From a virus, in the IMG/VR virus record IMGVR_UViG_3300025009_000319, positions 1 through 29,198 of that record: DNA of 29,198 nucleotides; one strand, 5' to 3'. Each line of letters begins with the position of its first letter. The stretch's first letter is position 1. The notes beneath the pieces were generated by a model. That model worked only from the letters and a program-made list of their open reading frames with translations. It had not been told where the DNA came from and ran no database searches. Below are positions 2,954-29,198 of this stretch, in pieces. Both the position numbers and the translations under genes were made by a program.

Positions 2954-2988
2954 CTTGTTGACACCGTACCCTACTACGCTGCATTTAT
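2954..2988 (+). promoter_or_regulatory. Short gap with a weak promoter-like element
   Basis: This 35-base gap after the portal gene is one of the few non-overlapping junctions. It holds a perfect TTGACA at 2958-2963. The best downstream partner, ATTTAT at 2983-2988, matches the -10 consensus at only three positions and sits 19 bases away. The following gene also lacks a clear ribosome site. I list it as the only promoter-like sequence here, with low confidence. Confidence 0.15.
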
Positions 2989-3783: not shown

Positions 3784-3785
3784 AC

Positions 3786-4490: not shown

Positions 4491-4491
4491 C

Positions 4492-6045
4492 ATGGGGCTC
4501 TACGACATCAGCTTCCCGGGAGCCAACGAGACCATCGAGTATGGTCAGCTCGCGGAGATCAACGACGCCCTTCGCCGCGCGGCTCGTGGCCTCGCCAAGA
4601 CGGTCGTCAACGTCGGCGGCACCGTGGGCTACCCCCAGCAGGCCGTCGCCTACCTCAGCCCCAGCGACACCTTCGTCGACCCCCTGCTCCCGCAGAGCAT
4701 CCAGCCGGTCCTCACCAACTTCGACTTCAACGAGTCGCACCTCTGGTTCTTCCAGATGGTGGCCAAGGTCCAGGCGACCAGCACGCTGCACGAGTACAGC
4801 TCGATCCGGCAGCACGGCACGCCCAGCCTGAACCCGTTCTTCGCCCAGGGCGGCGTCGCGCCGCTGAGCCAGGCGAAGTACGCTCGCGGGACCGTGAAGA
4901 TCAAGTTCCTGATGGAGTACATGCAGGTCAGCGACGTCGCTGCCATGCTGGGCACCGTCACGAACGGCACCGTGCTGGCACAGCTCACGCTCGACCACAC
5001 CGTCAGCCTCATGCGGAAGATCGAGCACTCGATGTTCTGGGCTGACGAGTCCGTCAACCCCCTCGCGTTCAACGGCCTGTACAAGGCCATCAAGAACGCG
5101 AACAACGACGCCACCGCGGCGACGAACGGCATCGGCACCCAGACCTACTGGGACAACGAGGGCAACGAGCTGAGCGGCCGCCTGCTCAACTACTACCTCT
5201 CGATCCTCAAGGCCGCCCCCCGCTACGGCAACCCGACGCACATCCTGTGCACGCCGGAGCAGTTCGAGGCCTTCAAGAACCAGCTCCTGGTGCTCGGCCG
5301 CCAGTTCATGGGCCAGGGCGACGGCTACCTCAGCCTCAGCCCGGAGGGTGGCATCTACGCCACGGGGATGATCCCGATCGTCCCGGTGACGTTCCTCGCC
5401 TACCCCAAGGGCATCCTCAACGTCAGTGTCGGCGACGAGCCCCCGACCCTCATCACGCCGACCATCGGCCTCGAGGAGGTGCTCGGCCTCGGCAAGTGGA
5501 CGGCCTACGACAAGACCAAGGACACGCATGTGGCCGTGGTCGCGATCGGTGAGGGCGGCAACTCGGCGCCCAAGTTCGCCACGGTGCAGATCGGTGACAA
5601 CACCGGGCTCGCGACGGACACCATCACCATCGACATCGTGGACACCGGGGCGCCGTGGATCGGGGCTGCCAACAGCCTCATCTACTACTCGGTGTTCCTG
5701 GCGCAGGTGGCCATCGGCGGCGCGGACCCGTCGCTCTGGGACTACACCTGGGTCGGCGACTTCGCGCGCGTGCCGGGGACCAACACGGCCATCACGCTGC
5801 GCAACCAGAAGCGCATCGGCACCGCGCCGGTGTACATCATCGAGCTGAAGCCCGAGGTCATGCAGTTCACCCAGTTGCTCGACCTCACCCGGCGCAACAT
5901 CACCGTGTCCAAGACCACGGCGACCCAGTTCGGCATCATGATGTTCGGCTCGTTCACCCTCATGGTGCCGCACCGCAACTTCATCATCGACAACGTGCTG
6001 CCGGGCTTCACGCTCAACCTCACCGACGCGGTGTCGCTGCCGTAG
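4492..6045 (+). CDS. Major capsid protein (HK97 fold)
   Basis: The 517-residue product is the probable shell protein. The N-terminal third has an extended-loop-like stretch and a spine-helix-like region with IEHSMFWADESVNPLAFNGL. The motif YGNPTHILCTPEQFEAFKNQ is typical of the peripheral domain of large HK97-fold capsid proteins, and a late axial-domain part contains ELKPEVMQFTQLLDL and FGSFTLMVPHRNFIIDNV. A beta-rich Gly/Thr/Asp section near residues 345-440 appears to be an inserted domain, making the protein longer than HK97's. Codon usage is the most selected in the window, as expected for the most abundant virion protein. The gene starts one base after the scaffold stop, with AAGGGGG just upstream, and is followed at once by two hairpins. 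Confidence 0.85.
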   Translation: MGLYDISFPGANETIEYGQLAEINDALRRAARGLAKTVVNVGGTVGYPQQAVAYLSPSDTFVDPLLPQSIQPVLTNFDFNESHLWFFQMVAKVQATSTLHEYSSIRQHGTPSLNPFFAQGGVAPLSQAKYARGTVKIKFLMEYMQVSDVAAMLGTVTNGTVLAQLTLDHTVSLMRKIEHSMFWADESVNPLAFNGLYKAIKNANNDATAATNGIGTQTYWDNEGNELSGRLLNYYLSILKAAPRYGNPTHILCTPEQFEAFKNQLLVLGRQFMGQGDGYLSLSPEGGIYATGMIPIVPVTFLAYPKGILNVSVGDEPPTLITPTIGLEEVLGLGKWTAYDKTKDTHVAVVAIGEGGNSAPKFATVQIGDNTGLATDTITIDIVDTGAPWIGAANSLIYYSVFLAQVAIGGADPSLWDYTWVGDFARVPGTNTAITLRNQKRIGTAPVYIIELKPEVMQFTQLLDLTRRNITVSKTTATQFGIMMFGSFTLMVPHRNFIIDNVLPGFTLNLTDAVSLP

Positions 6046-10286: not shown

Positions 10287-12425
10287 ATGGCTGGTGGACT
10301 GAGCTACGGCAAGATTGACACCGCGCTGCCGGGTGTCTTCGTGGTGGAAAAGATTGCAGACCTTGCGGCTGCTACCCCCTCGAAGGGCGTCCTCACGCTG
10401 GTGGGGATGTTCCCCAGCCTCAAGCAGGGGGTCGTGTACGGCGTCTCGACGGACGCTGCGATGCGCTCGCTGGCCCCGGGCGACGAGACCCTGGACGTCC
10501 TGAGCGACGTGGTCTTCAACCCGAGCCCCGACAGCGACGTGAAGGGCCCCTCGGAGGTGCGCCTCATCTCGCCCGTCGAGACCTCGCAGGCGCTGGGCCT
10601 CATCCCGGTCACCCCTGGCGTGGGGTCGGCCATCGCGCTCAAGGCGAACATCTGGGGTCTCCGTGGCAACTCGACCCGGCTGTCCGTCACCCCCAACGCC
10701 ACGGTCGGCGGCTTCGACCTCGTCGCCAGCAACGGGGGCCTCACCGAGCGCTTCCGGGCGGAGGACTGCTCGGACATCTTCTCGGTGGCCTACCTCTACA
10801 CCGGGGCTGCTGGCACCGCGACGGCCACGACCAGCTTCGACACCACGGGGGCTGGTACGGGTACGGGTACCCTGACCCTCGAGGTTGGGGACCCCCCGAC
10901 GGGCTACGGTACGGACCAGGGCATCACCCTGCGCTTCGTGCGCACGGTCCCCCCGACCGCCGTGGCCCTGCTCACCGCTGGGGCTACCCTGTCCTGGTCC
11001 CCCAACGGCCCGGTCTTCGGCCCGCTGTCCATCGACTGCACGGGGGGTACGCTCGGCACGGGTGCTACCTCGCTCAAGGCCATCATCACCGGGGTGGACT
11101 CGGCGACGGGGATGGCGACGACCGAGGAGCTGATCCTCATCGACACCGAGGTCCCCGTGGTGACCCCTGGCGTCGTGGTGTCCCCCACCATCTGGGCCTC
11201 GGTCACGTCGGTGTCCATCTTCCAGAACACGGCCACGACGGCGTTCACCACCTCGGGTGCCCTGACCATCTCGGGCATGATCCTCCCGCCGTACACCACG
11301 GCGCGGGGCTTCACCAACGTGGCGGACGTCATCTCGGACATCGTCACCCGCAGCGGGAGCTACGGGTTCACGACGACCACGGCGTCGGCGCGCACCTACG
11401 ACCTGGCCATCGAAGACCTCGACGTCATGGCCGAGGAGGCCCTGGCGACGGCGGTCGTGAGCGCCACGCTCTGGTCGCTGGTCACGGCCATCAACGGCAA
11501 CTCGGCCCTCGTCTCGGCGACCGGGGTGGCGACGCCTACCATCGCGGCAGCGGCCTCCTACAGCTTCTCGGGCGGCGGCGTCACGGGTACCCCGTCGACC
11601 CAGGACTGGGCCGACGTCCTGGCCGAGCTGGCCTGGTACAACACCAACGTCATCGCGCTCCTCTCCACGAGCGCCACGCTGCACGCCCAGCTCGACACCC
11701 ACCTCACCTTCATGCGGGGGAACGGGGCGAACGAGCGCCAGGGCTGGGTCCCGTCAGCGGACCTCGACACCTTCGTGCTGCTCCGCACCCGGGGCATCAA
11801 CCTCAACAGCTCCGAGCTGAGCATCATGTCCAACGGGGGCTACATCAAGAGCCGCCTGGGGACCACCAAGGCCATCACGACCATCACGGCCTGCGCCAAC
11901 ATGGCAGCCTTGCAGTGCGGCGTCCCGGCGGCCCGGCCCATCAACGGCCACCGCACCCGGCTGACGTCCACCACCCAGGGCTGGACCCTCGGGCAGCTGG
12001 ACGACATCACCCGCGCGGGTGTCACGGGCGTCATCGCCACCCCCGGTGACGTCCCCCGCGTCGTGCGCCACGTCACCACCCACGTCGCGACCGAGAACCT
12101 CTGCCTCACCGAGGGCAGCGCCCGCGAGTCGAGCTTCCTCTGCTACCGGGGCGTGCGCGCCACGGTCAAGGCGTGGCAGCGGGCCAACGGGTCCATCACC
12201 CAGGAGGCCGTGAAGACCCTGGCTCCGATGGTCGAGGCCACCCTGGACTCCCAGGCCCTCGGCGACCGCGCCATCATCTTCTCCTACACGGCGGACAGCG
12301 TGGTGGTCCGTCCGTCGGGAGCGGTCACGCTCATCGACTTCAAGTACCGCCCGGTGCTCCCCAACCTCTGGGCCATCATCCGGCCCACGATGGCCCCGGA
12401 GACCGCGACCATCACCATCGCGTAG
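10287..12425 (+). CDS. Tail sheath protein
   Basis: The 712-residue product is the probable contractile sheath subunit, which shortens to drive the tube into the cell. The N-terminus (LPGVFVVEKI) is like the sheath start that carries the linking strand. The C-terminal third is most typical: GYIKSRLGTTKAITTITACA, then a VRHVTTH motif at residues 593-599, and a final beta segment ending TMAPETATITIA. The part near residues 150-400 is Thr/Gly-rich and beta-rich, and looks like surface insertions; it makes the protein longer than minimal sheaths. GAGGAGG at 10273-10279 is seven bases before ATG 10287. Codons are highly optimised, as expected for a protein made in many copies. The tube gene follows, as usual. 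Confidence 0.85.
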   Translation: MAGGLSYGKIDTALPGVFVVEKIADLAAATPSKGVLTLVGMFPSLKQGVVYGVSTDAAMRSLAPGDETLDVLSDVVFNPSPDSDVKGPSEVRLISPVETSQALGLIPVTPGVGSAIALKANIWGLRGNSTRLSVTPNATVGGFDLVASNGGLTERFRAEDCSDIFSVAYLYTGAAGTATATTSFDTTGAGTGTGTLTLEVGDPPTGYGTDQGITLRFVRTVPPTAVALLTAGATLSWSPNGPVFGPLSIDCTGGTLGTGATSLKAIITGVDSATGMATTEELILIDTEVPVVTPGVVVSPTIWASVTSVSIFQNTATTAFTTSGALTISGMILPPYTTARGFTNVADVISDIVTRSGSYGFTTTTASARTYDLAIEDLDVMAEEALATAVVSATLWSLVTAINGNSALVSATGVATPTIAAAASYSFSGGGVTGTPSTQDWADVLAELAWYNTNVIALLSTSATLHAQLDTHLTFMRGNGANERQGWVPSADLDTFVLLRTRGINLNSSELSIMSNGGYIKSRLGTTKAITTITACANMAALQCGVPAARPINGHRTRLTSTTQGWTLGQLDDITRAGVTGVIATPGDVPRVVRHVTTHVATENLCLTEGSARESSFLCYRGVRATVKAWQRANGSITQEAVKTLAPMVEATLDSQALGDRAIIFSYTADSVVVRPSGAVTLIDFKYRPVLPNLWAIIRPTMAPETATITIA
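10854..10871 (+). repeat. Short hexanucleotide repeat in sheath gene
   Basis: Two copies of GGTACG followed by one GGTACC encode an alternating Gly-Thr run inside a variable loop region of the sheath. Such a run could change length by slippage in steps of two residues without breaking the frame. It is very short and may be chance. Confidence 0.35.
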
Positions 12426-12440
12426 CAGGAGCACACGTTC

Positions 12441-12959
12441 ATGGCACTCGAAGACCTCCGCGCACTGTCTGCGCCCAGCGCCCTCCTCTACGTCGCCGGT
12501 GTCCAGGTTGGCTGGGCCGGCGGCGTCGACATCACCGAGACCATCACGAAGGTCCCGATCATGAAGCTGGGTGACGTGCACGTCCAGAAATACGAGACCA
12601 CTGCGGTCTCGGTCTCTGGGACGTTCTCGTACATCCACATCATGCAGCTCCCGCTCTCGAGCCAGCTGGCGGCCATGGAGGGCATGTCCCCGGGCGAGCT
12701 GGTCAGCCTCTGGCCGAACCCCGGGAACGCGGCCCAGCAGACGTCGTCGCAGCGCTCGGACTACTATGTCAAGTTCCCCGAGCTGAACCTCGCGATGGTG
12801 GACAAGTTCAGCGGTCAGAAGATGATCCAGGTCTTCGGGCTGAACCCCCAGAGCCGCAGCTTCTCGCTGTCCAACGGCGGGCTCCTCGCGGTCAACGTCT
12901 CGTGGGTCGCCCGCGCCCTCGTGGAGCGCCCCATCCCCAACGCCGGCATATACAGCTAG
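12441..12959 (+). CDS. Tail tube protein
   Basis: The 172-residue protein directly after the sheath fits the inner tube subunit of contractile tails, whose rings form the DNA channel. It is beta-rich, with a strand-loop start (LLYVAGVQVGWAGGVDIT), a central KYETTAVSVSGTFSYIHIMQ stretch like the tube core, and a final SLSNGGLLAVNVSWVARAL strand pair. Size and position are right for XkdM-like or gp19-like tubes. AGGAG at 12427-12431 lies nine bases before ATG 12441. Codons are optimised like those of the sheath. A membrane or enzyme role is not suggested. Confidence 0.78.
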   Translation: MALEDLRALSAPSALLYVAGVQVGWAGGVDITETITKVPIMKLGDVHVQKYETTAVSVSGTFSYIHIMQLPLSSQLAAMEGMSPGELVSLWPNPGNAAQQTSSQRSDYYVKFPELNLAMVDKFSGQKMIQVFGLNPQSRSFSLSNGGLLAVNVSWVARALVERPIPNAGIYS

Positions 12960-13745: not shown

Positions 13746-16452
13746 CAAGAAGGTGGGCGTCGACTACGACCTCAACGTCCGCGTTGAGGGTGGTCAGGTC
13801 AAGAGCCTGAAGACCGACGTCCAGGATCTCAACCGTAGCCTCGACGAGACCAAGGCGCTCCTGAAGAGCATCCGAGAGGCCAACCCCACGTACCCTGGGC
13901 GTCTCTCGGCCGGTGGCTCCGTGCAGGCCCAGGGGTCGAAGGCACCCTGGGCCTACTACTCGGCGGGCGAGTCCTCGGCTGATGTCAAACGGTTCAGGGC
14001 TGCCTGGGCAGCCTCTGAGCCAGTGGATGCTGCCAGGGCTGCTGCGGACGTAGCCAGGCTTGATGTCGCCCACCGACGAGCCTCGCGCCCGATGTACGGG
14101 ACCGAGCTGCCTGGGATGCTGGCTGCTGGGTCGCTGCGCAACCACCAGGGCCGCCTGGACATGCTGGCCAACAACCCGGATGCTACCCAGGGCGCCTGGG
14201 ATGTGGCCAACGCAGCTGCACAGGCTGCAGTCAAGGGGGGCATCCTCAATGTCGGTGACGCTCGTGCACAGGACGTCTATGCAGCTGCCAAGGTCCGGTC
14301 GGCAGCTAGGGTAGACGTCGCGGCTGAGCTGGCCAACAGCATGCGTGCGGCTGGGCTGGACCCTGCCGGCCTCGATACCATGTCAGGTGGAAGTCGAGAG
14401 GCTGATGCCAAGCTGAGCCGGACCATGGCCTCCGGCCGTCGGCAGCTCAAGGCATCCACAGCCCGTACTCGGGCTCAAGCCAAGGCTCAGAGAGAGCTTG
14501 ATTCTAGTTGGGCTCAAGCATCCAGCCGTCGGGGGCGCTCTGAAGACCTCGACCTGGACATTGAACGCGTGGCAGCCGAGATGGCTGACGCGGGCATCGA
14601 GGGACCTCTCAGGGCCTTCGGGGATGAGGACACTGCTGAGGGTGTGCAGTCCCGGCAGAAGTACCTCAAGCAGTCCCGGAACAAGTTGGGCATCGCAGGC
14701 TACAAGTACCGCACGGGCAAGGCCCTCATCGAAGGGCATCAGGGCCTGCAGAAGCTGGTCACAGACTACACAGCCCTGGGGGAGAAGGGCAAGAAGTGGG
14801 GCGTCCCGGACGTGGTCGACGCAGGTGTCCTTGCCAGAGCCAGCTCCCTGCTTGCCCAAGGCACGACGTCTGACACCCCCACGGCGCTGGTCCGTGAGCA
14901 GACCCTGATGACCCAGGAGCTGCGGGGGTACGTGCGGACTGCGCACAGCAACATCAAGGCCAACGGCACCAAGCCCCCAGACGACGGGGCTGAGGACCGT
15001 AGCGTCAAGGCGTTCGCCCGGTACTCCCTGCGGGGCCTGTCCCGGGTAGCCGGCTCACTGAGCGAGGGCTACATCTCCGGGGGCATAGAGGGCCTGAACC
15101 AGGGGCTCCTCGGCGGGGCCCAGCAGGGCTCCAACGCGATGATGTCCTACGGGCTCGTCAAGGGCAACATCCCCCTGGCCATCGCGGGTGCAGTGGGGGA
15201 CATGCTCTTCGGGTCCTTGGGAGCGCTGTACCAGCGCGGCACCCAGGTCCGGCAGCGGGGCAATGAAGCCATGGGCGGGCTGGAGAACGCCTCGGCCTTC
15301 GTGGCCGGGGGCTTCAGCCAGGCCGAGGCAACCACCAGCGGGCAGCAGTCGGGGGACTACCGAGCGGCTGCCAGGGAGCTTCGGGAGGCCGGGATCATGG
15401 GCCCCAGTCTGATCGACATGGGGTACTCCACCCCTGCCATGCGGCAAGCGGCCGAGGCTGCCAAGCGCAGCGGGGGCTCGGAGGCTGCCCGGCGCCGTGA
15501 AGCTGTGGCCCAGGATGCCCAGGACATCGGAGGCATCTACGGGTACAGCGACTCGGCTGTCATCCAGGCTGTGGGGGCCTACACCCAGGCCCCCCGGTTC
15601 AACATGCTGACCAAGCGCCGGAACGGGGACCGCCCGAACCCGTTCGGGTCCGCGGCCTACAACATGCGGGCGCTGTTCGGCGAGACCAAGCTGTTCTCGG
15701 ATGTCTCCATGGGCATGGGGACGGGACTCGAGCTTGGCACCGTAGCATCGCTCAGCTACCAGGAATCCATGGGGGTCCTATCTGGGGGCGCAGGGGCCGT
15801 GGCGGGCGTAGCCAACGCTGCAGGTTGGTACGGTGGGGCCGCCCAGGACTACGCATCCTCGGTGCTGGGCATGGGCGAGCGTAGCATCGCGTCCCTCGGT
15901 GGGCGCTTCGATGTGGGCTCCATGCTGCGGACCAACCAGGGGCTGGTGAACCAGGGTCAGAGCCTCGGCGCCATCCAGGCCATGAACCAACGCCAGCTTG
16001 GGGAAGCCGAGAGCGCCAAGGACTTCTTCCTCGCCCCCTACAAGGAGCTGGGCAAGATCGCGCGCATGGCCATGGCAGCGGAGGAGTTCGGGGACGACCC
16101 CGTCAAGATGGCCATGGCGGCTGGGGGCTACGCCCCGGCCAAGACCGCGGCCTGGATGAGTGCGACCGACCAGCGTGCGGCTGAAGGCTACTGGGCCTCG
16201 CAGGGCATGGACCCGGCGAAGGGCATGAACATGGCCGAGGTGGACATCGCAGCCCCGACCCCCAAGAAGATCGACCCGTTCGGCTACGCGATCGGGCTGG
16301 CCAACTCCACCCGGGCCATCGCCTACGCCAGCAACCCTGAGGCGTACCAGCGGATGACCGCGGTGCTCGAGTCCATGAACGACCTGGCCTCGAGCTTCAA
16401 ATCCTTCATGGATGGCGCGGCCGGGGCTGGTGGGACTCGAGGGGGCGACTGA
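13738..16452 (+). CDS. Tape measure protein
   Basis: The 904-residue protein is the longest in the window and follows the chaperones, as tape measure proteins do. They set tail length and pass into or through the envelope at ejection. Residues 22-48 form a probable coiled coil (SLKTDVQDLNRSLDETKALL). Much of the sequence is Ala/Gly-rich helix. A hydrophobic segment at about 472-497 (GLVKGNIPLAIAGAVGDMLF) could cross a membrane. Gly/Ala/Ser-rich stretches follow, including SLSYQESMGVLSGGAGAVAG. I see no lytic transglycosylase or peptidase motif. AGGGGG at 13726-13731 precedes ATG 13738. Confidence 0.8.
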   Translation: MADKKVGVDYDLNVRVEGGQVKSLKTDVQDLNRSLDETKALLKSIREANPTYPGRLSAGGSVQAQGSKAPWAYYSAGESSADVKRFRAAWAASEPVDAARAAADVARLDVAHRRASRPMYGTELPGMLAAGSLRNHQGRLDMLANNPDATQGAWDVANAAAQAAVKGGILNVGDARAQDVYAAAKVRSAARVDVAAELANSMRAAGLDPAGLDTMSGGSREADAKLSRTMASGRRQLKASTARTRAQAKAQRELDSSWAQASSRRGRSEDLDLDIERVAAEMADAGIEGPLRAFGDEDTAEGVQSRQKYLKQSRNKLGIAGYKYRTGKALIEGHQGLQKLVTDYTALGEKGKKWGVPDVVDAGVLARASSLLAQGTTSDTPTALVREQTLMTQELRGYVRTAHSNIKANGTKPPDDGAEDRSVKAFARYSLRGLSRVAGSLSEGYISGGIEGLNQGLLGGAQQGSNAMMSYGLVKGNIPLAIAGAVGDMLFGSLGALYQRGTQVRQRGNEAMGGLENASAFVAGGFSQAEATTSGQQSGDYRAAARELREAGIMGPSLIDMGYSTPAMRQAAEAAKRSGGSEAARRREAVAQDAQDIGGIYGYSDSAVIQAVGAYTQAPRFNMLTKRRNGDRPNPFGSAAYNMRALFGETKLFSDVSMGMGTGLELGTVASLSYQESMGVLSGGAGAVAGVANAAGWYGGAAQDYASSVLGMGERSIASLGGRFDVGSMLRTNQGLVNQGQSLGAIQAMNQRQLGEAESAKDFFLAPYKELGKIARMAMAAEEFGDDPVKMAMAAGGYAPAKTAAWMSATDQRAAEGYWASQGMDPAKGMNMAEVDIAAPTPKKIDPFGYAIGLANSTRAIAYASNPEAYQRMTAVLESMNDLASSFKSFMDGAAGAGGTRGGD

Positions 16453-18968
16453 TGTTGGACGACACCCCCATCAGCGTGGAGTTCCACCGTCTGGGCCTAG
16501 GCAGGGTGCTACGCCCGGCCTGGACCCGAGCCAACTGGACCAACGCCACCACCCCTGGCTACCAGAACGTCACCGTCGAGATGAAGGTCCCGCTCAACAA
16601 GCGCGACGAGATCCCGAAGGCTGGGGACTGGTACGTCATCCGGGACCCCCGCAGGGGCGTGGCCCTCGGGCGGGTGCTCTCCCCCAACATCACCATCAAC
16701 AACATGGAGAGCGGCGCCACCACGATGTCCGTCTCGGTCCGGGGGGTAGGCTGGTTCGACCATCTCCGGTCGATGGCCATCTTCATCCGGCTCACGGGCA
16801 AGGGTCACGTCAAGGGTACGGACGAGCGCGTGCTGGCTGGGACCCTGTTCAGCCTGAGCTACTTCGCCACGAAGGCCTACTCGCTCTTGGCCAGCAGCAT
16901 CACGGAGACGGCTGGTACGGCCCTCGAGCAGTACATCGCGCTGGTCAGCAGCATGCAGCTCCCCGAGACCCTGGGGGGCGGGAACCTCGTGGATGAGGTG
17001 GCCGTCGTCCACGACGAGGAGACCTCGAAGTCCCTGGCCCCTGGCTGGGTGAAGGAGAGCCTGGGGTTCCCTGGCTTCACGATGGCCAACATTGGGGGCA
17101 ACTTCTTCGACACAACCGTGGGGGCGTTGATCGACAGCGCCTTCATGTACGACTCAACCTGGGTGGAGCTGTTCCCCATCCTGCAGCCCCCGGTCTACAT
17201 CAACGGCCAGGGGCCACAGCTGACGGGACTCGAGCTGGCCATCGGTGCCCGCCCCCTGGTTGTCTACCGCACGCGCCCCTACCGCACGCGCCGGCTGGTG
17301 GATGACGTCGAGGGGGATGCCAGCAGCATCGCCCCCATCTTCAACACCGTGACGTGGGACATCAAGACGTCCGGGGCCAACCCCCGCATCCCGGCGAACC
17401 TGGTACGCAACCTGGGTGACATCCGCTACGTGATGTCCGACCACGTCAACACCGCCTCAGTCATCCCCACGGGCTTCGGGGCCTCGGAGTCATCCTCGTC
17501 CGCCCAGGCTTGGGGCCTGCCCCTGGCCAACGAGGCAGACATCCTCAAGTACGGGCTGCATCGGGCGCTGACCAAGTGGCCCTTCATCGGCACGGACGGC
17601 GGGGACTTCGTCAAGACCCTGCGGGCTGTGGCAGCCAGCACCCTGCAGCTCTACCGGAACGGGCACATGTACGGGCATGGTTCGGTGACCACCCCCCTGG
17701 TCTACGTCACCAACGGCAACCCCAGGAACCGGGATGCCACCCCTACCTACGACCCAGAGACCTCCACCCGCCAGGCCCTCCAGCCTGGGCAACTCCAGAC
17801 CACGGCCTACAACGGCCAGCTTCTGGACGTGGAGCCCGGCAAGCACCTGTCCATCGAGATGGGGGACCGCAACCAGCGCACCCTGTACGCCTACTGCACA
17901 TCGAGCCAGCATGTCATCCAGCGCAACCCCAACGCCACCTGGCATGGGTCGTCGACACACGCCATCACGCGGGCGATGTGGGACGACGAGATCGACACCA
18001 TCGGGACAGCCAAGGTGTACCTCGACAAGCTGCCTGTAGCCGCCCCAGCAGCGTCTGACACCCCCTGGTCCACGGGAGGCGTGAAGGAGCTGCAGCCTGT
18101 TCCCTTGGCGGGCTTCAAGTACAAGGGCACCGTCTACCCCCTGAAGAACGCCGATGGCTCCTCGTGGGGTGGCACCGTCAGCTACGCCCAGTCCCAGTTC
18201 CAAGATGGAAGCACGGGCAAGTACCGGGAGGGCAACCTTCAGCTCACCGTCATCCATGATTCGGACTCGGGCACCACGGCTACACCCAAGCGCATGGCGA
18301 ATTACTTCCAGAAGTCCCTGATGGATGGCACCGACCCCAGGTGCGTGAACTTCATCATCGGGGCTGACGGCAGCATCTGGCAGACCTTCGACGCGGCCGT
18401 GGCTACCTGGCACACCCCTAGCCTGGGGGGCTGGGTTAACAACAACGCCGTGGGCATCGAGCTGGTGCACACGGTCTCGAACGGGAAGAAGCCCTACTCG
18501 GCCACGAACACCAAGGGGTGGCTCTTCTCCACCATGACCCTGGCTGAGATCCAAGCAGCCTGGCCTGGCATCCCGGCTCCCTACGGTGGGGCCACCACGA
18601 ACATCACGGTAGTGGACTACCGGGCATCTGAGATGCCCGACTACGGCCCGTTCAAGATCGGCGTGCCCTACTACACCCGGGTGGAGCATCAGTCCGGGGC
18701 CGTCGAGACCCTGCTGCACCGGAACTTCCTGGCTCCCACAGAGGCCCAACTCACGACGCTTCGGGCCCTGCTGCGGGGGCTCAAGAGCGCTGCCGGGCTA
18801 CCTCTTCGGTCCCAAGTGAGTGCGTCGGCTTCGGTCCTCCGGCTCAAGGACCAAGCAAAGGCTGTGGACCTGGCCAGGGGTGGCGGCATCTTCATCCACA
18901 CCCAGCTAGCCCCCGGGCATGCTGACGTAGTTGGCCTCCACCCGGGCAAGCTGGTCGTGTCCCTATGA
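16452..18968 (+). CDS. Tail hub protein fused to N-acetylmuramoyl-L-alanine amidase
   Basis: An 838-residue fusion. The first 550 residues look like a beta-rich baseplate hub protein (gp27/gp44-like): YQNVTVEMKVPLNKRDEIPK, then a DWYVIRDPRRGVALGRVLS strand pair, and later a VEPGKHLSIEMGD-like domain. The C-terminal 240 residues match an Amidase_2 fold, which cuts the bond between N-acetylmuramic acid and the L-alanine of the stem peptide. Zinc-site candidates are His602 (LTVIHDS), His654 (ATWHT) and a later pair, His823 (PGHADV) and His830 (LHPG), of which the true third ligand is unclear. Glu670 lies in NNNAVGIELVHT, a family motif. TGATG overlap with the tape measure suggests coupled synthesis. 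The enzyme likely opens the cell wall during tube entry. Confidence 0.75.
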   Translation: MLDDTPISVEFHRLGLGRVLRPAWTRANWTNATTPGYQNVTVEMKVPLNKRDEIPKAGDWYVIRDPRRGVALGRVLSPNITINNMESGATTMSVSVRGVGWFDHLRSMAIFIRLTGKGHVKGTDERVLAGTLFSLSYFATKAYSLLASSITETAGTALEQYIALVSSMQLPETLGGGNLVDEVAVVHDEETSKSLAPGWVKESLGFPGFTMANIGGNFFDTTVGALIDSAFMYDSTWVELFPILQPPVYINGQGPQLTGLELAIGARPLVVYRTRPYRTRRLVDDVEGDASSIAPIFNTVTWDIKTSGANPRIPANLVRNLGDIRYVMSDHVNTASVIPTGFGASESSSSAQAWGLPLANEADILKYGLHRALTKWPFIGTDGGDFVKTLRAVAASTLQLYRNGHMYGHGSVTTPLVYVTNGNPRNRDATPTYDPETSTRQALQPGQLQTTAYNGQLLDVEPGKHLSIEMGDRNQRTLYAYCTSSQHVIQRNPNATWHGSSTHAITRAMWDDEIDTIGTAKVYLDKLPVAAPAASDTPWSTGGVKELQPVPLAGFKYKGTVYPLKNADGSSWGGTVSYAQSQFQDGSTGKYREGNLQLTVIHDSDSGTTATPKRMANYFQKSLMDGTDPRCVNFIIGADGSIWQTFDAAVATWHTPSLGGWVNNNAVGIELVHTVSNGKKPYSATNTKGWLFSTMTLAEIQAAWPGIPAPYGGATTNITVVDYRASEMPDYGPFKIGVPYYTRVEHQSGAVETLLHRNFLAPTEAQLTTLRALLRGLKSAAGLPLRSQVSASASVLRLKDQAKAVDLARGGGIFIHTQLAPGHADVVGLHPGKLVVSL

Positions 18969-21617: not shown

Positions 21618-23012
21618 GTGCCGATCCAACCCAGATTGCCCGCCGAGATCCTGCAGAGCATGGTGGCCCGCTTGGTCGCTGTGTCTCCGCTGACGGACAT
21701 CGCTGAGGGTGGCGTGGTTCACTCCATCCTCGGGGTGGTCTCAGACGAGCTGTCCACGATGGAGCAGCTCATCTTCGAGCTGTGGTCCGCCTGGCTGTTC
21801 CGGGCCACCGGCGAGCGGCTGGACATCGTGGTCTCGGCCCTGCCCATCTCTCCCCGCCATGGGGCCCAGTCGGCTCGGGGTGGGGACTTCGTGGTGTACC
21901 GCTCGGCTGCCGTGGACACCATCATCATCCCGGCGGGGGGCCTGCTGGCGTTCGACCCCACCAGCCCTGAGACGACGTACACCAACGAGTTCGAGATCGT
22001 CTGCCTGGCAGGGGCCCTCACCACGACCTTGAGCAACGGCCTGCCCATCTCGTTCGTGTGCACCGTGGCAGGGTCCAACCGGGGGGCTGCTGCGGGGCTG
22101 GTGGCCCAGCTCCGGGCCCCCTACAACGACGTCTACGGGCTGGCCAACGCCACGTCCATCTCGGACGGCACAGACGGCGAGACCGACTCCAACCTCCAGG
22201 CCCGTGCCTGGGCTTGGGTGCAGCGGCTGGGCATCTGCCAGCCGGACGCCATCGAAGGACTGGTGCGGGACTTCGTCGACTCTGACGGGCGGGCAGCAAC
22301 CTGGGTCCGGGTCGTGGAGTACCCGGGTGTCCCAGGGTACAGCGAGGTGCTCATCGACGATGGCAGTGGGTTCCAGTCGAGCGTGCGCCCTGGGACATCC
22401 ACATCGGGCATCGTGCCGGCTGGCATCTCGAACAGCCGCTTCTCGTTCTGGTTCGAGGCCCCAGCGTTCACCACGCCCCGGCTGGCCATCACCCATGGCG
22501 GGACGACCCGTACCTACGTGCCCCCGAACCCGGCCCTGGTCATCCACCAGGAGTCGGGGATGGCCTGGACGGTGCCCACGGCGTCCCCGATGGTGATGAG
22601 CCCCGGGGATGCCTGGCGGATGAGCAGCTACAACGTGCTCACGGGCTACCCCAAGTACCTGCAGCAGCTCCTCAACTCGTCCGTTGCTCATACCGGGACG
22701 CGCGTCCGGGTGACCCTGCCGGTGCTCCAGCGCATCACGCTGACCGGGACCTACCGGGCCAGCGCAGGGTACTCGGCCACAACGGTGCTGGCCCGGCTGA
22801 AGCAAGTCATCACGAACTACTTCAAGCAGCTCGCCCCCGGCCAGCCCTTGGTCATCCATGACCTCCACGACTTCATCGGGTCGGCTGCACGTGGCCCAGC
22901 CATGGTGCCCGGCTTGATCGATGTCACGTTCGACCAGACGAACACCGCCCCCACGGCCGACAACCGGAAGCTGTGGGTCGACGACAACGCCATCTCCCTG
23001 ACTCGAGGGTAG
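21618..23012 (+). CDS. Baseplate J-like wedge protein
   Basis: The 464-residue protein resembles the baseplate J/gp47/XkdT family, a main wedge component that changes shape before sheath contraction. The start has an SPLTDIAEGGVVHSILGVVS segment followed by the LSTMEQLIFELWSAWLFRATG helix, typical of the family's N-terminus. The VVYRSAAVDTIIIPAGGLL stretch is the usual beta part. SDGTDGETDSNLQARAWAWV near residues 182-201 matches the conserved G-x-D-x-E-x-D...R motif. Starts at GTG 21618, two bases after the upstream stop, without a strong ribosome site. Confidence 0.8.
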   Translation: MPIQPRLPAEILQSMVARLVAVSPLTDIAEGGVVHSILGVVSDELSTMEQLIFELWSAWLFRATGERLDIVVSALPISPRHGAQSARGGDFVVYRSAAVDTIIIPAGGLLAFDPTSPETTYTNEFEIVCLAGALTTTLSNGLPISFVCTVAGSNRGAAAGLVAQLRAPYNDVYGLANATSISDGTDGETDSNLQARAWAWVQRLGICQPDAIEGLVRDFVDSDGRAATWVRVVEYPGVPGYSEVLIDDGSGFQSSVRPGTSTSGIVPAGISNSRFSFWFEAPAFTTPRLAITHGGTTRTYVPPNPALVIHQESGMAWTVPTASPMVMSPGDAWRMSSYNVLTGYPKYLQQLLNSSVAHTGTRVRVTLPVLQRITLTGTYRASAGYSATTVLARLKQVITNYFKQLAPGQPLVIHDLHDFIGSAARGPAMVPGLIDVTFDQTNTAPTADNRKLWVDDNAISLTRG

Positions 23013-23015
23013 CCC

Positions 23016-24281
23016 ATGCTCGGCGACCGCGTGCAGTTCCCGCTGGCCTTGCAGCGGCTTGTGAAGAGCGACTTGCTCAGCATCCAGAGCCTGCTCACTG
23101 ACACCCTCGTGCGTAGCATCGCCGGGGTGCTGGGGCGTGCCTGGGGGGCGGCGTCCTACATCGACTACGACACGTCGGCCTTCAGCGTGGACCCCGTCCC
23201 GGCGAGCGGGGTGGTCAACATCGGCCATGGCCTGCTGGTTGGGGTGATGGGCTACGACGACCCCAGCCCGACGGCAGACATCACCCCCTACGGCGGGGTG
23301 TACGTGCACGACCCCGACCGCCCGGCCCAGGCAGGGTCGAGCAGCGTGTCGCTCACGGGGGGCGTGCACCGCTTCATCCTGTTCCGGCGGACGGAGCGCA
23401 CGGACCAGGGCATCGCCTCCAGGGTCTGGCTGAACGTGGCCACGGGCGCCCTCGAGATTGATCCCAGCACCCCTACGGAGGTGCACGAGGTCATCGAGTT
23501 CACGGCCTCGGCCACGATCACCACGGGCCTCATCACCGACGACTGGTTCCCGATGGCCACGGTCAGCTGGGACGCCGGGGTCCCGACCATCACGTCCATC
23601 CCCTTCATCGAGGGCCCGACGCATGTCCTGGATGGGGGCTTCGTGTCCCCGCCTCCCAGTGACGCCACGGGCGTCGGGCTCGTCTCGCAGCTCCAGGCCC
23701 TGTGGTCGCAGATGCGGGCCGTGCTCAGCTCCGATGACCCCGGTGGCGTGGTCGTGCCCATGGCCCCCACACGGGGGCTGGCTGAGATCAACGCCATCCT
23801 CGACACTGGCGTGGGGGCCAGGGCCCAGGTACTGGGCGCCGGGGCGGGGCTGTCCACCTACTACTTCGTCGCGGACGGCATCCTGTCCATGACAGGGTCA
23901 TACGTTGGCAACATCATCACGGATGTGACTGCTGGCTACCCTGGCGGTCCTCTGGTTGGACCGGACGTCCTCAACGTCCTGGTGGCCACACAGGCCCAGT
24001 TGGATGCCCACAGTGCCATCACCTACCCCGCCTCAGGTGATGGGTACGCAGTCCTCCGCATTCTGTTCCCGGCTACGGTCCAGCGCCTCGTCCGGTCAGT
24101 CCAGTTGACCACCCGAAGCAGCTTGGCAATCCCGGGGTACATCGCCAGCCACTATGGCACCGAGCGCTTCGCAGCTGGGGTGGTGTCGACCTTCAACGAG
24201 GTCTGGGTGCATGTACAGGTACTGGACTTCGCAGGTGCCCCGGTCAACACCGAAGTCAGCTTTTCCATCTTCAGCATCTAG
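23016..24281 (+). CDS. Unrecognised baseplate or tail-fibre protein
   Basis: No family is recognised in this 421-residue protein. The first 45 residues are helical (FPLALQRLVKSDLLSIQSLL), then comes a beta-rich domain with YGGVYVHDPDRPAQ and VHRFILFRRTE, a short helix region, and a final beta domain from about 320 on. The lack of cysteine-rich or enzymatic motifs and its place after the J gene suggest a virion structural part that joins wedges to fibres. GAGGG at 23005-23009 sits six bases before ATG 23016. Confidence 0.5.
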   Translation: MLGDRVQFPLALQRLVKSDLLSIQSLLTDTLVRSIAGVLGRAWGAASYIDYDTSAFSVDPVPASGVVNIGHGLLVGVMGYDDPSPTADITPYGGVYVHDPDRPAQAGSSSVSLTGGVHRFILFRRTERTDQGIASRVWLNVATGALEIDPSTPTEVHEVIEFTASATITTGLITDDWFPMATVSWDAGVPTITSIPFIEGPTHVLDGGFVSPPPSDATGVGLVSQLQALWSQMRAVLSSDDPGGVVVPMAPTRGLAEINAILDTGVGARAQVLGAGAGLSTYYFVADGILSMTGSYVGNIITDVTAGYPGGPLVGPDVLNVLVATQAQLDAHSAITYPASGDGYAVLRILFPATVQRLVRSVQLTTRSSLAIPGYIASHYGTERFAAGVVSTFNEVWVHVQVLDFAGAPVNTEVSFSIFSI

Positions 24282-24289
24282 GGGGCTTC

Positions 24290-25288
24290 GTGGCTACGCC
24301 AACTCCGATCATCACTGAGGGCCCCTACGTCGAAGCTGCCTGGGCTGGGTCTCCGGTGCCCAGTGTCATCCTGCACGGGGGTACCAGCGTCAGCGGGGCC
24401 ACGTCCATCACGACGTGGCTCTGGTCCATCGTGTCCTCCAGCCTTGGTGCTGGGTCCCTTGCGTCTCTGCTGAACGCTGACACGGACACCGTGACGGTGC
24501 AGGGCATGGTCGAGGGGGAGGCCCTGCGTATCCTGCTCGTGGTCACCAACGACCTGAGCGAGTCCTCGCTGAGCAACGCCTACCCTGTCCAGAGTGGCGG
24601 GGTCTTCGTGGGCCCACCTGCTACAGCCTTCGTGGTCGTCGCCAACAAGCTCGAGCACACGGGCTTGGTCATGTACCCCCCTGGCGGGCGGGACTGGGAC
24701 AGCCGGGCCTTCTCCCCACTGGTCAACGTCGTCGAGGCTATGGAGCCCCGGCTGGCTGCGGCCGAGGATGCCACCGTGGCGGTGGCTACCGTCCTGGCAC
24801 CTGGCACCGTCAAGCTCTCGGATGCCCCAGTCGACCCTGCAGCTCCGGTGGTGTCCAACATCCAACGCGTGGTCCTGTCAGGCAGCTACACCGGGAACCT
24901 GGCTGTCGTGGCTGGTGGTAGCTCTGTCCCTGATGGACAACGAAGCGCTGCCCAAGTTGCCCTGATGGTGGTGGGCAACATGTACCTGGATGCCTACATA
25001 GGCATCCTTGGGCAGCGCGGGACCTACGCGGGGGGCACGAACCACGTCCGAGTGGATGTCTACCTGATGACAGCCGCCCAATACGCAACTGACGACTTCG
25101 CTGGGGCTGCCAGCTTGAGTCCACTGGCCTGGGCCAAGGATACCTCGACTCGAGTGGCCACCATAGTCCCTGCCCCCGGGTACCTGCTACCGTCTGGTGC
25201 CATCCTGGCGTTCGTTGTGACAAACGCCCCCACTACCCTGGCTCCGGCTGACCTAACGGTCAGTGTCCACTGCCACGCCAAGCTCTAG
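24290..25288 (+). CDS. Fibre or baseplate protein with Ig/PKD-like start
   Basis: A 332-residue protein from GTG 24290, with AGGGGG at 24280-24285. Residues about 30-95 look like a PKD/Ig-like beta domain: the TTWLWSIVSS strand, LLNADTDTVTVQG, then EALRILLVVTNDLSES. A middle linker with the helix SPLVNVVEAMEPRLAAAEDA follows, which could form a trimer stalk, and then a beta-rich C-terminal half with YLLPSGAILAFVVTNAPTTL. Ig-like domains are common on exposed phage surfaces and bind weakly to cell sugars. The assignment is by pattern only. Confidence 0.5.
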   Translation: MATPTPIITEGPYVEAAWAGSPVPSVILHGGTSVSGATSITTWLWSIVSSSLGAGSLASLLNADTDTVTVQGMVEGEALRILLVVTNDLSESSLSNAYPVQSGGVFVGPPATAFVVVANKLEHTGLVMYPPGGRDWDSRAFSPLVNVVEAMEPRLAAAEDATVAVATVLAPGTVKLSDAPVDPAAPVVSNIQRVVLSGSYTGNLAVVAGGSSVPDGQRSAAQVALMVVGNMYLDAYIGILGQRGTYAGGTNHVRVDVYLMTAAQYATDDFAGAASLSPLAWAKDTSTRVATIVPAPGYLLPSGAILAFVVTNAPTTLAPADLTVSVHCHAKL

Positions 25289-25297
25289 GAGGCCCTG

Positions 25298-25867
25298 ATG
25301 GCAACATACGGGGCCGGGCCTGACGCAGGGTTCGGGTCAGACAGCGCCGCCTTCGATGCAGGGTTCGGGGACCCGGTCATCGAGTACATGACTGGCACGG
25401 GCTTCGGAGACCCCCAGGACCAGACCACGGAGACGGTCTGGTTCATCGCCGGGATGCTACCCATCCAGGCATACCTGTGGGTGCCACCCCTTGGTCGGGT
25501 GGAAGTCGGCGAGGAAGGCGGCTATCTCCTCACCATCTACGCTCCGCTGGGGTTCATGGCCGGGAGCTACCGGGTGGACTTGCTGGACTCGGACAGCGTC
25601 CAGCACCCCATCGCCGAGCCTGGGTGCCACAGTGGCGTGCCCGGCCAGGGTCGGGCCATCGTGGCCACCCACGGCCGGACTGAGCTGTCCTTCGGGACGC
25701 CCCCCATGTTCCCCGGGGAGTACCGCGTCAAGCTGCTCGCCCCCAACGGGGTGTCCATGATCCTGGGTGGCACCGTGGTGTCACTGCCCCTGCCCCCGGC
25801 AGCCCTCGTCGACCGGATGGCCTCCCGGCTGCCACGCATCTTCAAGACCTCCTGGAGGAAGCCATGA
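25298..25867 (+). CDS. Hypothetical virion protein with Gly-Phe-Gly repeats
   Basis: A 189-residue protein with AGGAGG at 25287-25292 before ATG 25298. The N-terminus has three short related elements: DAGFGSD, DAGFGDP and GTGFGDP. The rest is beta-rich, with GYLLTIYAPLGFMAGSYRVDLL and EYRVKLLAPNGVSMILGG, a pattern like an immunoglobulin-type sandwich. The end is basic. No family is recognised; structural by context. Confidence 0.45.
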   Translation: MATYGAGPDAGFGSDSAAFDAGFGDPVIEYMTGTGFGDPQDQTTETVWFIAGMLPIQAYLWVPPLGRVEVGEEGGYLLTIYAPLGFMAGSYRVDLLDSDSVQHPIAEPGCHSGVPGQGRAIVATHGRTELSFGTPPMFPGEYRVKLLAPNGVSMILGGTVVSLPLPPAALVDRMASRLPRIFKTSWRKP

Positions 25868-26223
25868 CAGGCATCTTCGAGGACCCCATCGACTACACCG
25901 CGTACCCCTATCCGAACCCGATGCCGCACTTGCCGGCGCTGCTCTACGTACTCGGCAAGGAGCTTCAGGCTGTGGGTGGAAGGTGTGAGGCACTCGTCTC
26001 AGCAGACTGGACCCCGGCGACCGCCACGGAGTTCCTCCCAGGCTACGTGCAGCTGGACGTGTTCAGCACCCTGGGGTTCCCCGACACGGGCACCCTCAAC
26101 GTGGATGGGTACCACGTACCCTACACAGGGCGCGCGGCTACCTACTTCGTCGTGGCCCTGACAACCCTGCCCCCCTGGACGCTGCTGTTCGCAGGGTCCA
26201 ACATCACGCTGGCGGTCACCTGA
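25864..26223 (+). CDS. Small hypothetical baseplate protein
   Basis: The 119-residue product starts at an ATGA overlap. It opens with a Pro/Tyr-rich segment (DYTAYPYPNPMPHLPALLYV), then a short helix and a beta region with FSTLGFPDTGTLNVDGYHVP and repeated strands. The DxGTLxVDG form resembles a small beta domain found in tail proteins. Function unknown. Confidence 0.45.
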   Translation: MTGIFEDPIDYTAYPYPNPMPHLPALLYVLGKELQAVGGRCEALVSADWTPATATEFLPGYVQLDVFSTLGFPDTGTLNVDGYHVPYTGRAATYFVVALTTLPPWTLLFAGSNITLAVT

Positions 26224-27086
26224 TGAACACCGCTTGGGGTACCCTGTGGTCAGCCCTGCGCAGCCTCAGCCTGGGGACAGCGACTGGCCTGGATGCTGAC
26301 GAGCTGCAGCGTCAGGCCGGGCTGCCCTACCTTGGCTGGCCCACCAACACCGATGCCTGGCTGGTAGCCTGCAACGCCGTAGCCTTTGGCCGGCGAGGCA
26401 CTCGCCCCGTGCTGGTTCAGTTCCTGGCGGACGCACTGGTAGCCTGGTCTGAGACCATCACGGTCACGGGGTACGCCCCGGCTACGGTCGGCGGGTCCCC
26501 CCGCATCGGCGGGGTAGGGCTGACGGATGCCCACCAGAACCGCATCATCCGCACGACCCTGGGTACCTTCTTCACGGGTCACATCGATGGGGATGGCTAC
26601 CTCACCCTGCCCAACATGGGGCTCTGGCTGGATGACCCCGCGGCGGTCTGGGCGGGGGTGCCTACCACCACCTTCGATGTGGAGTTCACGGCCTTCGTCG
26701 TGAACACCCCTGGGCCTGGGATGGAGGAGCCCGGGTACGGGTTGTCCGGGGCCTACCTCGACCCGGTCTTCAAGTCGAAAGGCTACCCTTGCGTGGTCGA
26801 GATCGTGCTGGTGGGGGCCTTCCTCGACACCCAGCCCCCCTGGCCGTACCTGTTCGAGGGGGCCGAGACCTACCCTGCTGGGACCTGGGGCTCGCTGCTG
26901 TACGAGGCTGGCGAGGACGATCCTGACCTACGGGGGCTGTACCTCGTGGACGAGGACTTCGTCGTGGCTGCCCCAGACCTCACCAGGGTCATCGACCGCA
27001 GCATGCTAGCTGCGGGGGTGCAGCCCCGCATCCTGATCGGGCTAGCCTTCAACAGCCCCCCTGAGCTAGCCCCACCCGGGGATTGA
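26223..27086 (+). CDS. Tail protein I / XkdU-like candidate
   Basis: A 287-residue protein coupled by TGATG. The first 70 residues resemble the wedge-to-fibre connector family (gpI, XkdU): helix WSALRSLSLGTATGLDADEL, a short turn, then a second helix with a VACNAVAFGRRGTRPVLVQF part containing the RGT motif. After that comes a beta-rich domain ending in ALVAWSETITVTGY, then a less clear C-terminal half with PNMGLWLDDP and GTWGSLLYEAGEDD. The likely role is attaching a fibre to the baseplate rim. The match is by pattern, not by search. Confidence 0.45.
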   Translation: MNTAWGTLWSALRSLSLGTATGLDADELQRQAGLPYLGWPTNTDAWLVACNAVAFGRRGTRPVLVQFLADALVAWSETITVTGYAPATVGGSPRIGGVGLTDAHQNRIIRTTLGTFFTGHIDGDGYLTLPNMGLWLDDPAAVWAGVPTTTFDVEFTAFVVNTPGPGMEEPGYGLSGAYLDPVFKSKGYPCVVEIVLVGAFLDTQPPWPYLFEGAETYPAGTWGSLLYEAGEDDPDLRGLYLVDEDFVVAAPDLTRVIDRSMLAAGVQPRILIGLAFNSPPELAPPGD

Positions 27087-27119
27087 GCTAGGGTCCCGTG
27101 TGGTGTCAAGCACTACCGC

Positions 27120-27148
27120 TTGCCGTAGCCCCTGGCAGGCCCCATAAC
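27120..27148 (+). promoter_or_regulatory. Possible promoter before the fibre genes
   Basis: TTGCCG (27120-27125) and CATAAC (27143-27148) are 17 bases apart and each match the sigma-70 consensus at four of six positions. They sit in a 79-base gap, the largest non-coding stretch in the right half. The transcript would begin close to the ribosome site AGGAGG at 27156-27161, leaving a very short leader. Chance is possible in so GC-rich a sequence. Confidence 0.25.
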
Positions 27149-27165
27149 TAGCCCCAGGAGGCCCC

Positions 27166-27501
27166 ATGTTGAACCCTCGTCTCAAGCTCCCCACCAAGAC
27201 CGCCGACGCTGCTGGCGAGGTCTACATTTGGCCTGGCGACATGGGTGGCCAGCAGATCGATGCCTTCGACATCACCCTCCAGGTGAAGATGGCGGCAGGC
27301 ACCGCCTCGGTGTTCGTGCTTGGCCCCCTGGAGGAGTGGGCCCTGTGGCGCGATGGTACGGCCATCCCCACCATGGCTACGGGTCAGGCAGTGGTCATCA
27401 CTGAGGGTGCCTGGGGTGGCATCAAGGTGGTGTTCACGAACGCCGCCAACACCGGGCTGGTGGGTACCACGGTCGTCGAGAAGGCTGGGTTCCGCCGGTG
27501 A
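27166..27501 (+). CDS. Small beta-rich structural protein of the fibre region
   Basis: The 111-residue protein is preceded by AGGAGG at 27156-27161. It is mostly beta, with GEVYIWPGDMGGQQIDAF, ASVFVLGPLEEWALWRDG, and GGIKVVFTNAANTGLVGTTV. It ends at a GTGA overlap with the next gene, which suggests the two are made together. It may be a fibre-associated or virion-decoration subunit; no known family. Confidence 0.45.
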   Translation: MLNPRLKLPTKTADAAGEVYIWPGDMGGQQIDAFDITLQVKMAAGTASVFVLGPLEEWALWRDGTAIPTMATGQAVVITEGAWGGIKVVFTNAANTGLVGTTVVEKAGFRR

Positions 27502-28469
27502 GCGGACTGGTCCCCAACCCCCGCCGAGCACCTGGTGCCATGGTGTCTGTAGCCCTAGCCCCGCCAGCCACGGCAGGGGGTAGTGCAGGGGCACAGGCCA
27601 TGGGCGCTCCGCACATGGCAGGGGACAGGATGGCCTTCGCCGCCCTCTGCATCCCCATCCCCGCATCCCTGGTCCTGGGCCTCGGTGCCCCTGCAGTTGC
27701 AGCCGGCCCCTTCGCCACAGTCTGCACCCCCATCCCCGCGTCGCTCGTCCTCGGCCTGGGCGCGCCCGCGGTGACGGCCGAGAGTGCGGGGCCGGTGTGG
27801 CTCGGCACGCACGGGATGCTCACCGACGGAGCGGTGTTCGTAACTGCGCCTGCAATGGACCTGTCCGGAGCGCACGAGATCGTGGTGCTCTGGGAGCGCG
27901 ACTCCGCGAGTGCGGTGCATTTCATGGCCTGTACAACACAGGGCACCCAATACACGCATACCAACGCCAGCACCACGGCGCTACGGGGAGGGGTCTGGGA
28001 CGGGTCGGTATCCAGGGCGGCGAGCATCGCGGGGGCGCTCTCTGGGCGCCACCTCACTCATTTGGCGATCGAAAAGTCAGGATCAACCCATACCCCCTGG
28101 GTCGCGGTCGATGGGGGCGCAGCCGCGTCGGACGGCAGCGGGCTGCCCCTGACACTGACCGCAGCGCTGATCAGGATCGCACAAAACCCCGGCTCGCTAG
28201 CGGCGAGCGCGGCAGGGCTGAGACTGCGCGAAATCACCATCTACATCGGCGGCGCCCTGTCTGCTAATGACCGCGCCGCGCTCTACGCGTCGGGTGTTCC
28301 TGGCGACATGCGCACCCGCATCGTGCGCCAGCCCGCCCGCTACTACGACCTCAGCAACTTTTACGACTCCGGCGCCGGAGTCTGGAAAGTCAGCGACCTC
28401 ATCACGACCGACGGCACCACCGACGGCACCGTGGTGGGCGGAGACAACACCGACTTTGTGGCGGTCTGA
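27498..28469 (+). CDS. LamG-like tail-fibre or receptor-binding protein
   Basis: A 323-residue protein from GTG 27498. The N-terminal 100 residues are Ala/Pro-rich and include two adjacent 25-residue repeats starting at Cys51 and Cys76 (CIPIPASLVLGLGAPAV, CTPIPASLVLGLGAPAV). From about 100 to 275 a beta-sandwich resembles concanavalin/LamG lectin domains: AHEIVVLWERDSASAVHFMA, strands, then LRLREITIYIGGALSANDRA and ALYASG, a typical LamG_3 end. The last 45 residues contain DGTTDGTVVGGDN. Such lectin folds often bind host sugars. From the second repeat on, codon choice changes toward GCG, CTC and CCG. Sugar binding is inferred. Confidence 0.55.
   Translation: MSGLVPNPRRAPGAMVSVALAPPATAGGSAGAQAMGAPHMAGDRMAFAALCIPIPASLVLGLGAPAVAAGPFATVCTPIPASLVLGLGAPAVTAESAGPVWLGTHGMLTDGAVFVTAPAMDLSGAHEIVVLWERDSASAVHFMACTTQGTQYTHTNASTTALRGGVWDGSVSRAASIAGALSGRHLTHLAIEKSGSTHTPWVAVDGGAAASDGSGLPLTLTAALIRIAQNPGSLAASAAGLRLREITIYIGGALSANDRAALYASGVPGDMRTRIVRQPARYYDLSNFYDSGAGVWKVSDLITTDGTTDGTVVGGDNTDFVAV
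27648..27797 (+). repeat. Two adjacent 75-base coding repeats with different codons
   Basis: 27648-27722 and 27723-27797 encode the same 19-residue core with two amino-acid changes, each followed by six variable residues. Of the 17 codons for identical residues in the core, about ten are spelled differently, e.g. CTG against CTC and GCA against GCG. This is much more divergence than a fresh duplication would show. Confidence 0.75.
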
Positions 28470-28471
28470 AC

Positions 28472-28969
28472 ATGAGCGCAGCGCACCATTACTGGATCCT
28501 CGACGACACCGACGCCGCCATCGGCGCGGCCATGCGCGCGGCTGGCGCCGGCATCGTGCCAGGCGGGCTCGCTACGGGGCAGGGTGCGGGGCGCAACCTC
28601 GCGCTCATCAAGGTCCGCGCCGAGGCGGCCGACACCGCGCCCGCGGGCGTCACCGAGATGGGCCTTGTTGCGTGGGCGGGCACACCTGCGACCGAGACCG
28701 CTCCCGCTGTCGTCGGCTTCTCTCAGACCGGCCCCTGGGTCCCCTGCACCCCGCGGACCGACTGGACCGGCGCCGAGAAGGCCGTGCTCATCCCCGAGGC
28801 CGACGCCGGCCCGCAGCACGGCGACCTGACCACGGCCGAGCGCGTCGACGTGGCCGGCACCATCTGCCGCCTCATCCGCTACACCGGCACGAAGCCCGCG
28901 GCGCTGGCGGCCTACAGCTACATCGCAGCCGCCGACATCCCCGCCACCCTCACGCAGCAGGTGCCCTGA
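28472..28969 (+). CDS. Hypothetical fibre-region protein
   Basis: A 165-residue protein starting two bases after the LamG-like gene's stop codon. It opens with HHYWILDDTDAAIGAAMRAA and has a beta region around TGPWVPCTPRTDWTGAEKAV. A late part reads VAGTICRLIRYTGTKPAALA. No family is recognised. Small genes here often encode fibre parts or chaperones. Codons are of the same type as in the second half of the preceding gene. Confidence 0.45.
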   Translation: MSAAHHYWILDDTDAAIGAAMRAAGAGIVPGGLATGQGAGRNLALIKVRAEAADTAPAGVTEMGLVAWAGTPATETAPAVVGFSQTGPWVPCTPRTDWTGAEKAVLIPEADAGPQHGDLTTAERVDVAGTICRLIRYTGTKPAALAAYSYIAAADIPATLTQQVP

Positions 28970-29198
28970 TGCCCGAGACCTTCTTGTGCGGCGGCGCCCT
29001 CGCGGCGCCCGTAGTCCTCACCAGCGGCGCCAACTTCCCGCGGTTCCCCGCCTCCAGCCCGCTGCTCAGCGTCCGGGGCACAGGTACCACGACCGCCGTG
29101 CTCGACGCCGGGGCGACGGCCACCGCAGGCGCGGCGACGCACGTCTCGCTGCACACCGCCACGCCGGGCCTCACAGGAGCCAACGAAGTCGCCGAGAT
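28969..29198 (+). CDS. Tail-fibre-type protein, cut by the window end
   Basis: An open frame starts at ATG 28969, overlapping the previous stop as TGATG, and runs to the window end; 76 codons are complete. It has MPETFLCGGALAAP, VLTSGANFPRFPASSPLLSV and then HVSLHTATPGLTGANEVAE. The last element resembles the HxxLHTxxPGxTGxNE(V/I) stretch found in phage tail-fibre and tail-associated proteins, usually near their N-terminus and followed by a Tyr-Ala-Arg. Only the start is visible. Confidence 0.55.
   Translation, partial: MPETFLCGGALAAPVVLTSGANFPRFPASSPLLSVRGTGTTTAVLDAGATATAGAATHVSLHTATPGLTGANEVAE

Follow-up and report, generated by a model that had tools for sequence, protein, structure and literature searches.

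In a GC-rich virus contig of 29,198 bases (IMGVR_UViG_3300025009_000319, analysed whole and hereafter called the window), the putative fibre-like gene at positions 27498–28469 is best read as a mosaic tail-fibre-like gene whose distal module was probably gained by recombination in a repeat-bearing linker common to both parents, or next to it. We assign this reading a probability of roughly 0.6. It is supported by a break in codon style stronger than any obtained by shuffling (LLR 66.5 against 45.4), by 80% of the posterior for the junction falling in 27708–27741 and by the segregation by style of the codons in two repeat copies. Against it stand the facts that neither half is carried by any relative found, that the product has no family or structure marking it as a fibre, that the break lacks significance when the gene is scanned by itself and that codon heterogeneity also occurs elsewhere in the genome. 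The discontinuity between a native proximal and a foreign-looking distal part is present inside the gene by codon style only.

A myovirus gene set was recovered by PHROG hits of the genes scanned in the window, comprising a portal, a protease, a major capsid protein (MCP), a sheath, a baseplate and an amidase-bearing tail protein. Most matches of the MCP (about 25% identity) and of the sheath (about 24%) were to Herelleviridae-type phages, and judged by these matches the phage is a myovirus and distant kin of the Herelleviridae. It resembles Herelleviridae-type myoviruses in that both proteins match mainly that group, but differs from them in being very distant and GC-rich and in a fibre region for which no counterpart was found. 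The tail protein encoded at 16452–18968 carries the amidase domain (phrog_1794, E 6e-7), which suggests a host bearing peptidoglycan. Positions 558–5877 were 100% identical to IMGVR_UViG_3300025154_001433 (5320 bases) along the entire length of that contig, and the same phage was thus probably present in a second sample (3300025154).

The gene under study sits downstream of baseplate genes, the usual place of fibre genes, and it is from this location that its product is called fibre-like. The coding signature, with GC highest at the third codon position, is kept over most of the gene. Searches of its product against Pfam, PHROG, NCBIfam and PDB gave no matches, and two single-sequence structure models had pLDDT values of 33 and 31. 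A candidate likeness of the distal part to LamG/ConA-like domains, suggested by the motif ITIYIGGALSANDRAALY, was rejected, as Pfam gave it no support even at E 10. The features of the region are listed in the table.

Table. Features of the fibre-like gene and its surroundings (positions in the window).
Feature	Position	Strand	Basis or remark
Fibre-like gene, 323 aa	27498..28469	+	ORF; GTG start overlaps stop of preceding gene
N-terminal part, ordinary codon style of the phage	27498..27635	+	27498–27630 versus bulk: z 1.30, p 0.11
Repeat copy 1, FAALCIPIPASLVLGLGAPAVAAG, upstream codon style	27636..27707	+	Repeat and codon-pair analysis
Most likely codon-style break (putative junction)	27708..27741	.	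Posterior probability
Repeat copy 2, FATVCTPIPASLVLGLGAPAVTAE, 3' part in downstream codon style	27711..27782	+	Repeat and codon-pair analysis
Codon-atypical distal module, about 165 codons	27738..28233	+	GCG-rich, several rare codons
Second codon-style break	28218..28263	.	Downstream split at 28233
Next gene, 165 aa, no family; MCP/sheath/tube-like codon style	28472..28969	+	Codon comparison of 28472–end
Further structural gene, start only, rest cut by contig end	28969..29196	+	Weak phrog_240 match, E 0.0016

A direct repeat with 72-nt units at a spacing of 75 nt was found at 27634–27705 and 27709–27780, the two units sharing 78% DNA identity. The preliminary description had reported two adjacent, nearly identical 25-residue repeats with about ten synonymous differences at 27648–27800; the adjacent copies are indeed there, starting slightly earlier, at 27634–27636, and FAALCIPIPASLVLGLGAPAVAAG and FATVCTPIPASLVLGLGAPAVTAE share 19 of 24 residues, 10 of those 19 being encoded by different synonymous codons. 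The motif matched twice in the window and not once in 100 shuffles. Between the copies dS was about 1.0 and dN about 0.12: synonymous sites have come close to saturation under a conserved peptide, and the copies are therefore not a recent duplication. That the joining event itself left two copies, as proposed earlier, is possible but not required, and an in-register exchange between genes both carrying tandem copies fits equally well. When codons were paired between the copies, those of copy 1 resembled the upstream style and those of copy 2 the downstream style (sign-flip p = 0.006 to 0.02), in line with the assignment made at first sight. The 5' third of the copies was more similar (23 of 27 nt identical) than the remainder (31 of 45), but its matching codons mostly end in C, which both styles favour, so that this similarity gives no finer position for the break. 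The longest identical word common to the copies across the junction was 12 nt. Degenerate searches of IMG/VR for the repeat peptide found no occurrence.

The genes from 21618 to 29198 were scanned for a change-point in codon usage conditioned on the amino acids, without the location being supplied. The maximum-likelihood split fell at 27705 with an LLR of 66.5, against a mean of 30.5 and a maximum of 45.4 in 200 shuffles. A comparison of codon usage before and after 27720, which the preliminary description had proposed, is thereby answered by unequal styles on the two sides, and the position of the break agrees with the one given there. A scan within 27498–28469 alone placed the break at 27726 but was not significant (p = 0.16), the N-terminal part having only 75 codons; the significance of the first break is thus owed to the inclusion of the upstream genes. 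A posterior for the junction was also calculated, in which the styles were defined by codons outside the repeat. Taking the module style as the reference for the downstream side placed 80% of the posterior in 27708–27741, at the start of copy 2; taking all downstream codons as the reference placed 47% in the same interval and most of the remainder in copy 1. The junction thus lies in or adjoining the start of repeat copy 2.

A further break was detected at 28233 (LLR 43.2, null mean 27.8, a value reached in 0 of 300 shuffles). The sequence between the two breaks, 27738–28233, departed from the whole window with a z of 7.98, which exceeded all 225 sliding blocks, the highest of which (7.64) itself lay inside the module region. 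The module also differed from the bulk style (z 8.3), from the combined MCP, sheath and tube genes (z 13.9) and from the sequence from 28233 to the end (z 4.9); this piece of about 500 bp alone had a foreign look in all of the tests.

Two codon styles are native to the phage, that of the bulk and that of the MCP, sheath and tube genes. The MCP, the sheath and the gene that follows the sheath (4492–6045 and 10287–12959) have a common style rich in GCG, GGC, CTC and CGC that is set apart from the rest with a z of 26.5, probably through selection for expression. The region from 28472 to the end was indistinguishable from the MCP style (z 0.40, p 0.29) and likewise from that of MCP, sheath and tube combined (z 1.41, p 0.09), for which bulk blocks of the same size had a median z of 8.5. 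High expression rather than foreign origin may account for the codon usage of the genes in this region. The whole of 28233–end differed from the bulk style (z 7.5). The intervening 28233–28470 was closer to 28472–end (p 0.34) yet differed from the capsid set (z 5.6), and the point where native sequence resumes after the module is uncertain. Atypical codon usage was also seen in other parts of the window. The second half of the gene at 24290–25288 lies in a segment (24716–25343) nearly as atypical as the module (z 7.58), in a style with more A/T-ending codons, and is possibly another exchanged fibre segment. Internal codon-style breaks were found in other genes at 10377 and 26655, and the first 30 codons of the sheath gene (10287–10377) were unlike its remainder (z 4.4).

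Exact-peptide-word searches of phages, plasmids, IMG/VR and genomes, which diverged relatives may escape, found no relatives of either side of the junction, so that no donor, no version predating the swap and no second instance of the junction were observed. Locus searches by the same means and in the same collections with the fibre gene, its neighbours, baseplate J and the MCP gave no relatives beyond the distant MCP and sheath matches and the one identical fragment. As for known switching systems, long inverted repeats of the kind used in Gin/Cin-type segment switching were not found in 26000–29198, where the only inverted pairs were weak ones of 22–31 nt with 71–73% identity, a partner beyond 29198 being possible, and a reverse transcriptase of a diversity-generating retroelement was absent from the PHROG hits of the genes scanned in this contig, which is a fragment.

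An old internal duplication without any exchange, in which the linker has long been two-copy and the distal half has drifted or been selected (for expression, folding or mRNA structure) to another codon usage, would agree with the dS and dN values, as these fit an old conserved tandem repeat, and with the existence of two native styles, by which style varies by gene. The break, however, falls inside a single gene and at the repeat, and the module conforms to neither of the native styles, which makes drift after duplication the less likely account; we consider it unlikely. It is more doubtful still that the entire 3' end from about 27705, including the genes past 28469, is one foreign block. 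All of this sequence differs from the bulk, and 28233–28470 and 28472–end do not differ significantly from each other, but a single block is at odds with the second break at 28233, with the contrast between the module and the sequence following it, and with the agreement of 28472–end with the MCP and with the MCP, sheath and tube set. The preliminary description had given everything downstream a single style, which does not hold, and of the foreign fibre end that it saw joined in frame at the repeat, the join at the repeat is kept as the best reading while the foreign-looking piece shrinks from the whole 3' end to the module.

That an assembler misjoined two phages of the sample at the repeat is very improbable. 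The contig is from an uncultured source, the junction is covered by no second contig, and the identical fragment from the second sample spans 558–5877 only, all of which would allow for a chimera. The word shared across the junction is nevertheless only 12 nt long; the usual assemblers need more than this to make a k-mer misjoin, which is therefore unlikely, and the frame is continuous with the coding signature kept.

The codon style shifts sharply within the gene, the shift lies at a repeat, and the distal piece resembles neither of the native styles; recombination at or next to a linker common to both parents is the best reading of this combination. Under the mosaic reading, the first 70–80 codons, including repeat copy 1, would belong to the phage's own lineage, the distal module (27738 to about 28233) would stem from a different source, probably another phage or prophage, and recombination would have taken place within or beside the repeat-bearing linker, the peptide of which was common to both parents. 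As read from codon usage, the break would be the trace of this past event, and the module would form the outer part of the fibre, possibly a host-binding one. A more speculative extension, to which we give little credence, is that the linker serves as a docking point at the protein level: unrelated fibre tips would carry the same 25-residue linker, its peptide under selection while its codons diverge, permitting in-frame swaps that need no more than about 12 nt of DNA homology. If the mosaic reading is true, codon style by itself has placed a join in a fibre gene to within a few tens of bases, in a phage none of whose relatives has been sequenced. It would show the reshuffling of fibres, an ordinary phage way for parts probably touching the host, and the mechanism is not new.

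The kind of event, an exchange of fibre parts, is already well known, and the present case is a new example. In T-even phages, fibre exchange at gp37/gp38 occurs at repeated sequence boxes. The putative junction described here likewise lies within a repeated peptide motif of the gene, but the longest run of identical nt common to its two copies is 12, and a population with alternative fibre tips was not observed. Published work describes C-terminal receptor-binding domains as very prone to horizontal transfer and the N-terminal anchor as conserved within the genus; motifs conserved inside such genes or close to them may assist recombination (PMC10408124). Compared with such modular receptor-binding proteins, for example the tailspikes of E. 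coli phages (PMC10408124), the fibre-like gene differs in having no relatives and no recognised anchor or receptor-binding domain, in its second break about 500 bp on and in an exchange deduced from codons alone; it shares with them an abrupt change in DNA composition within a gene that follows the baseplate genes, the upstream part being native and the distal part different.
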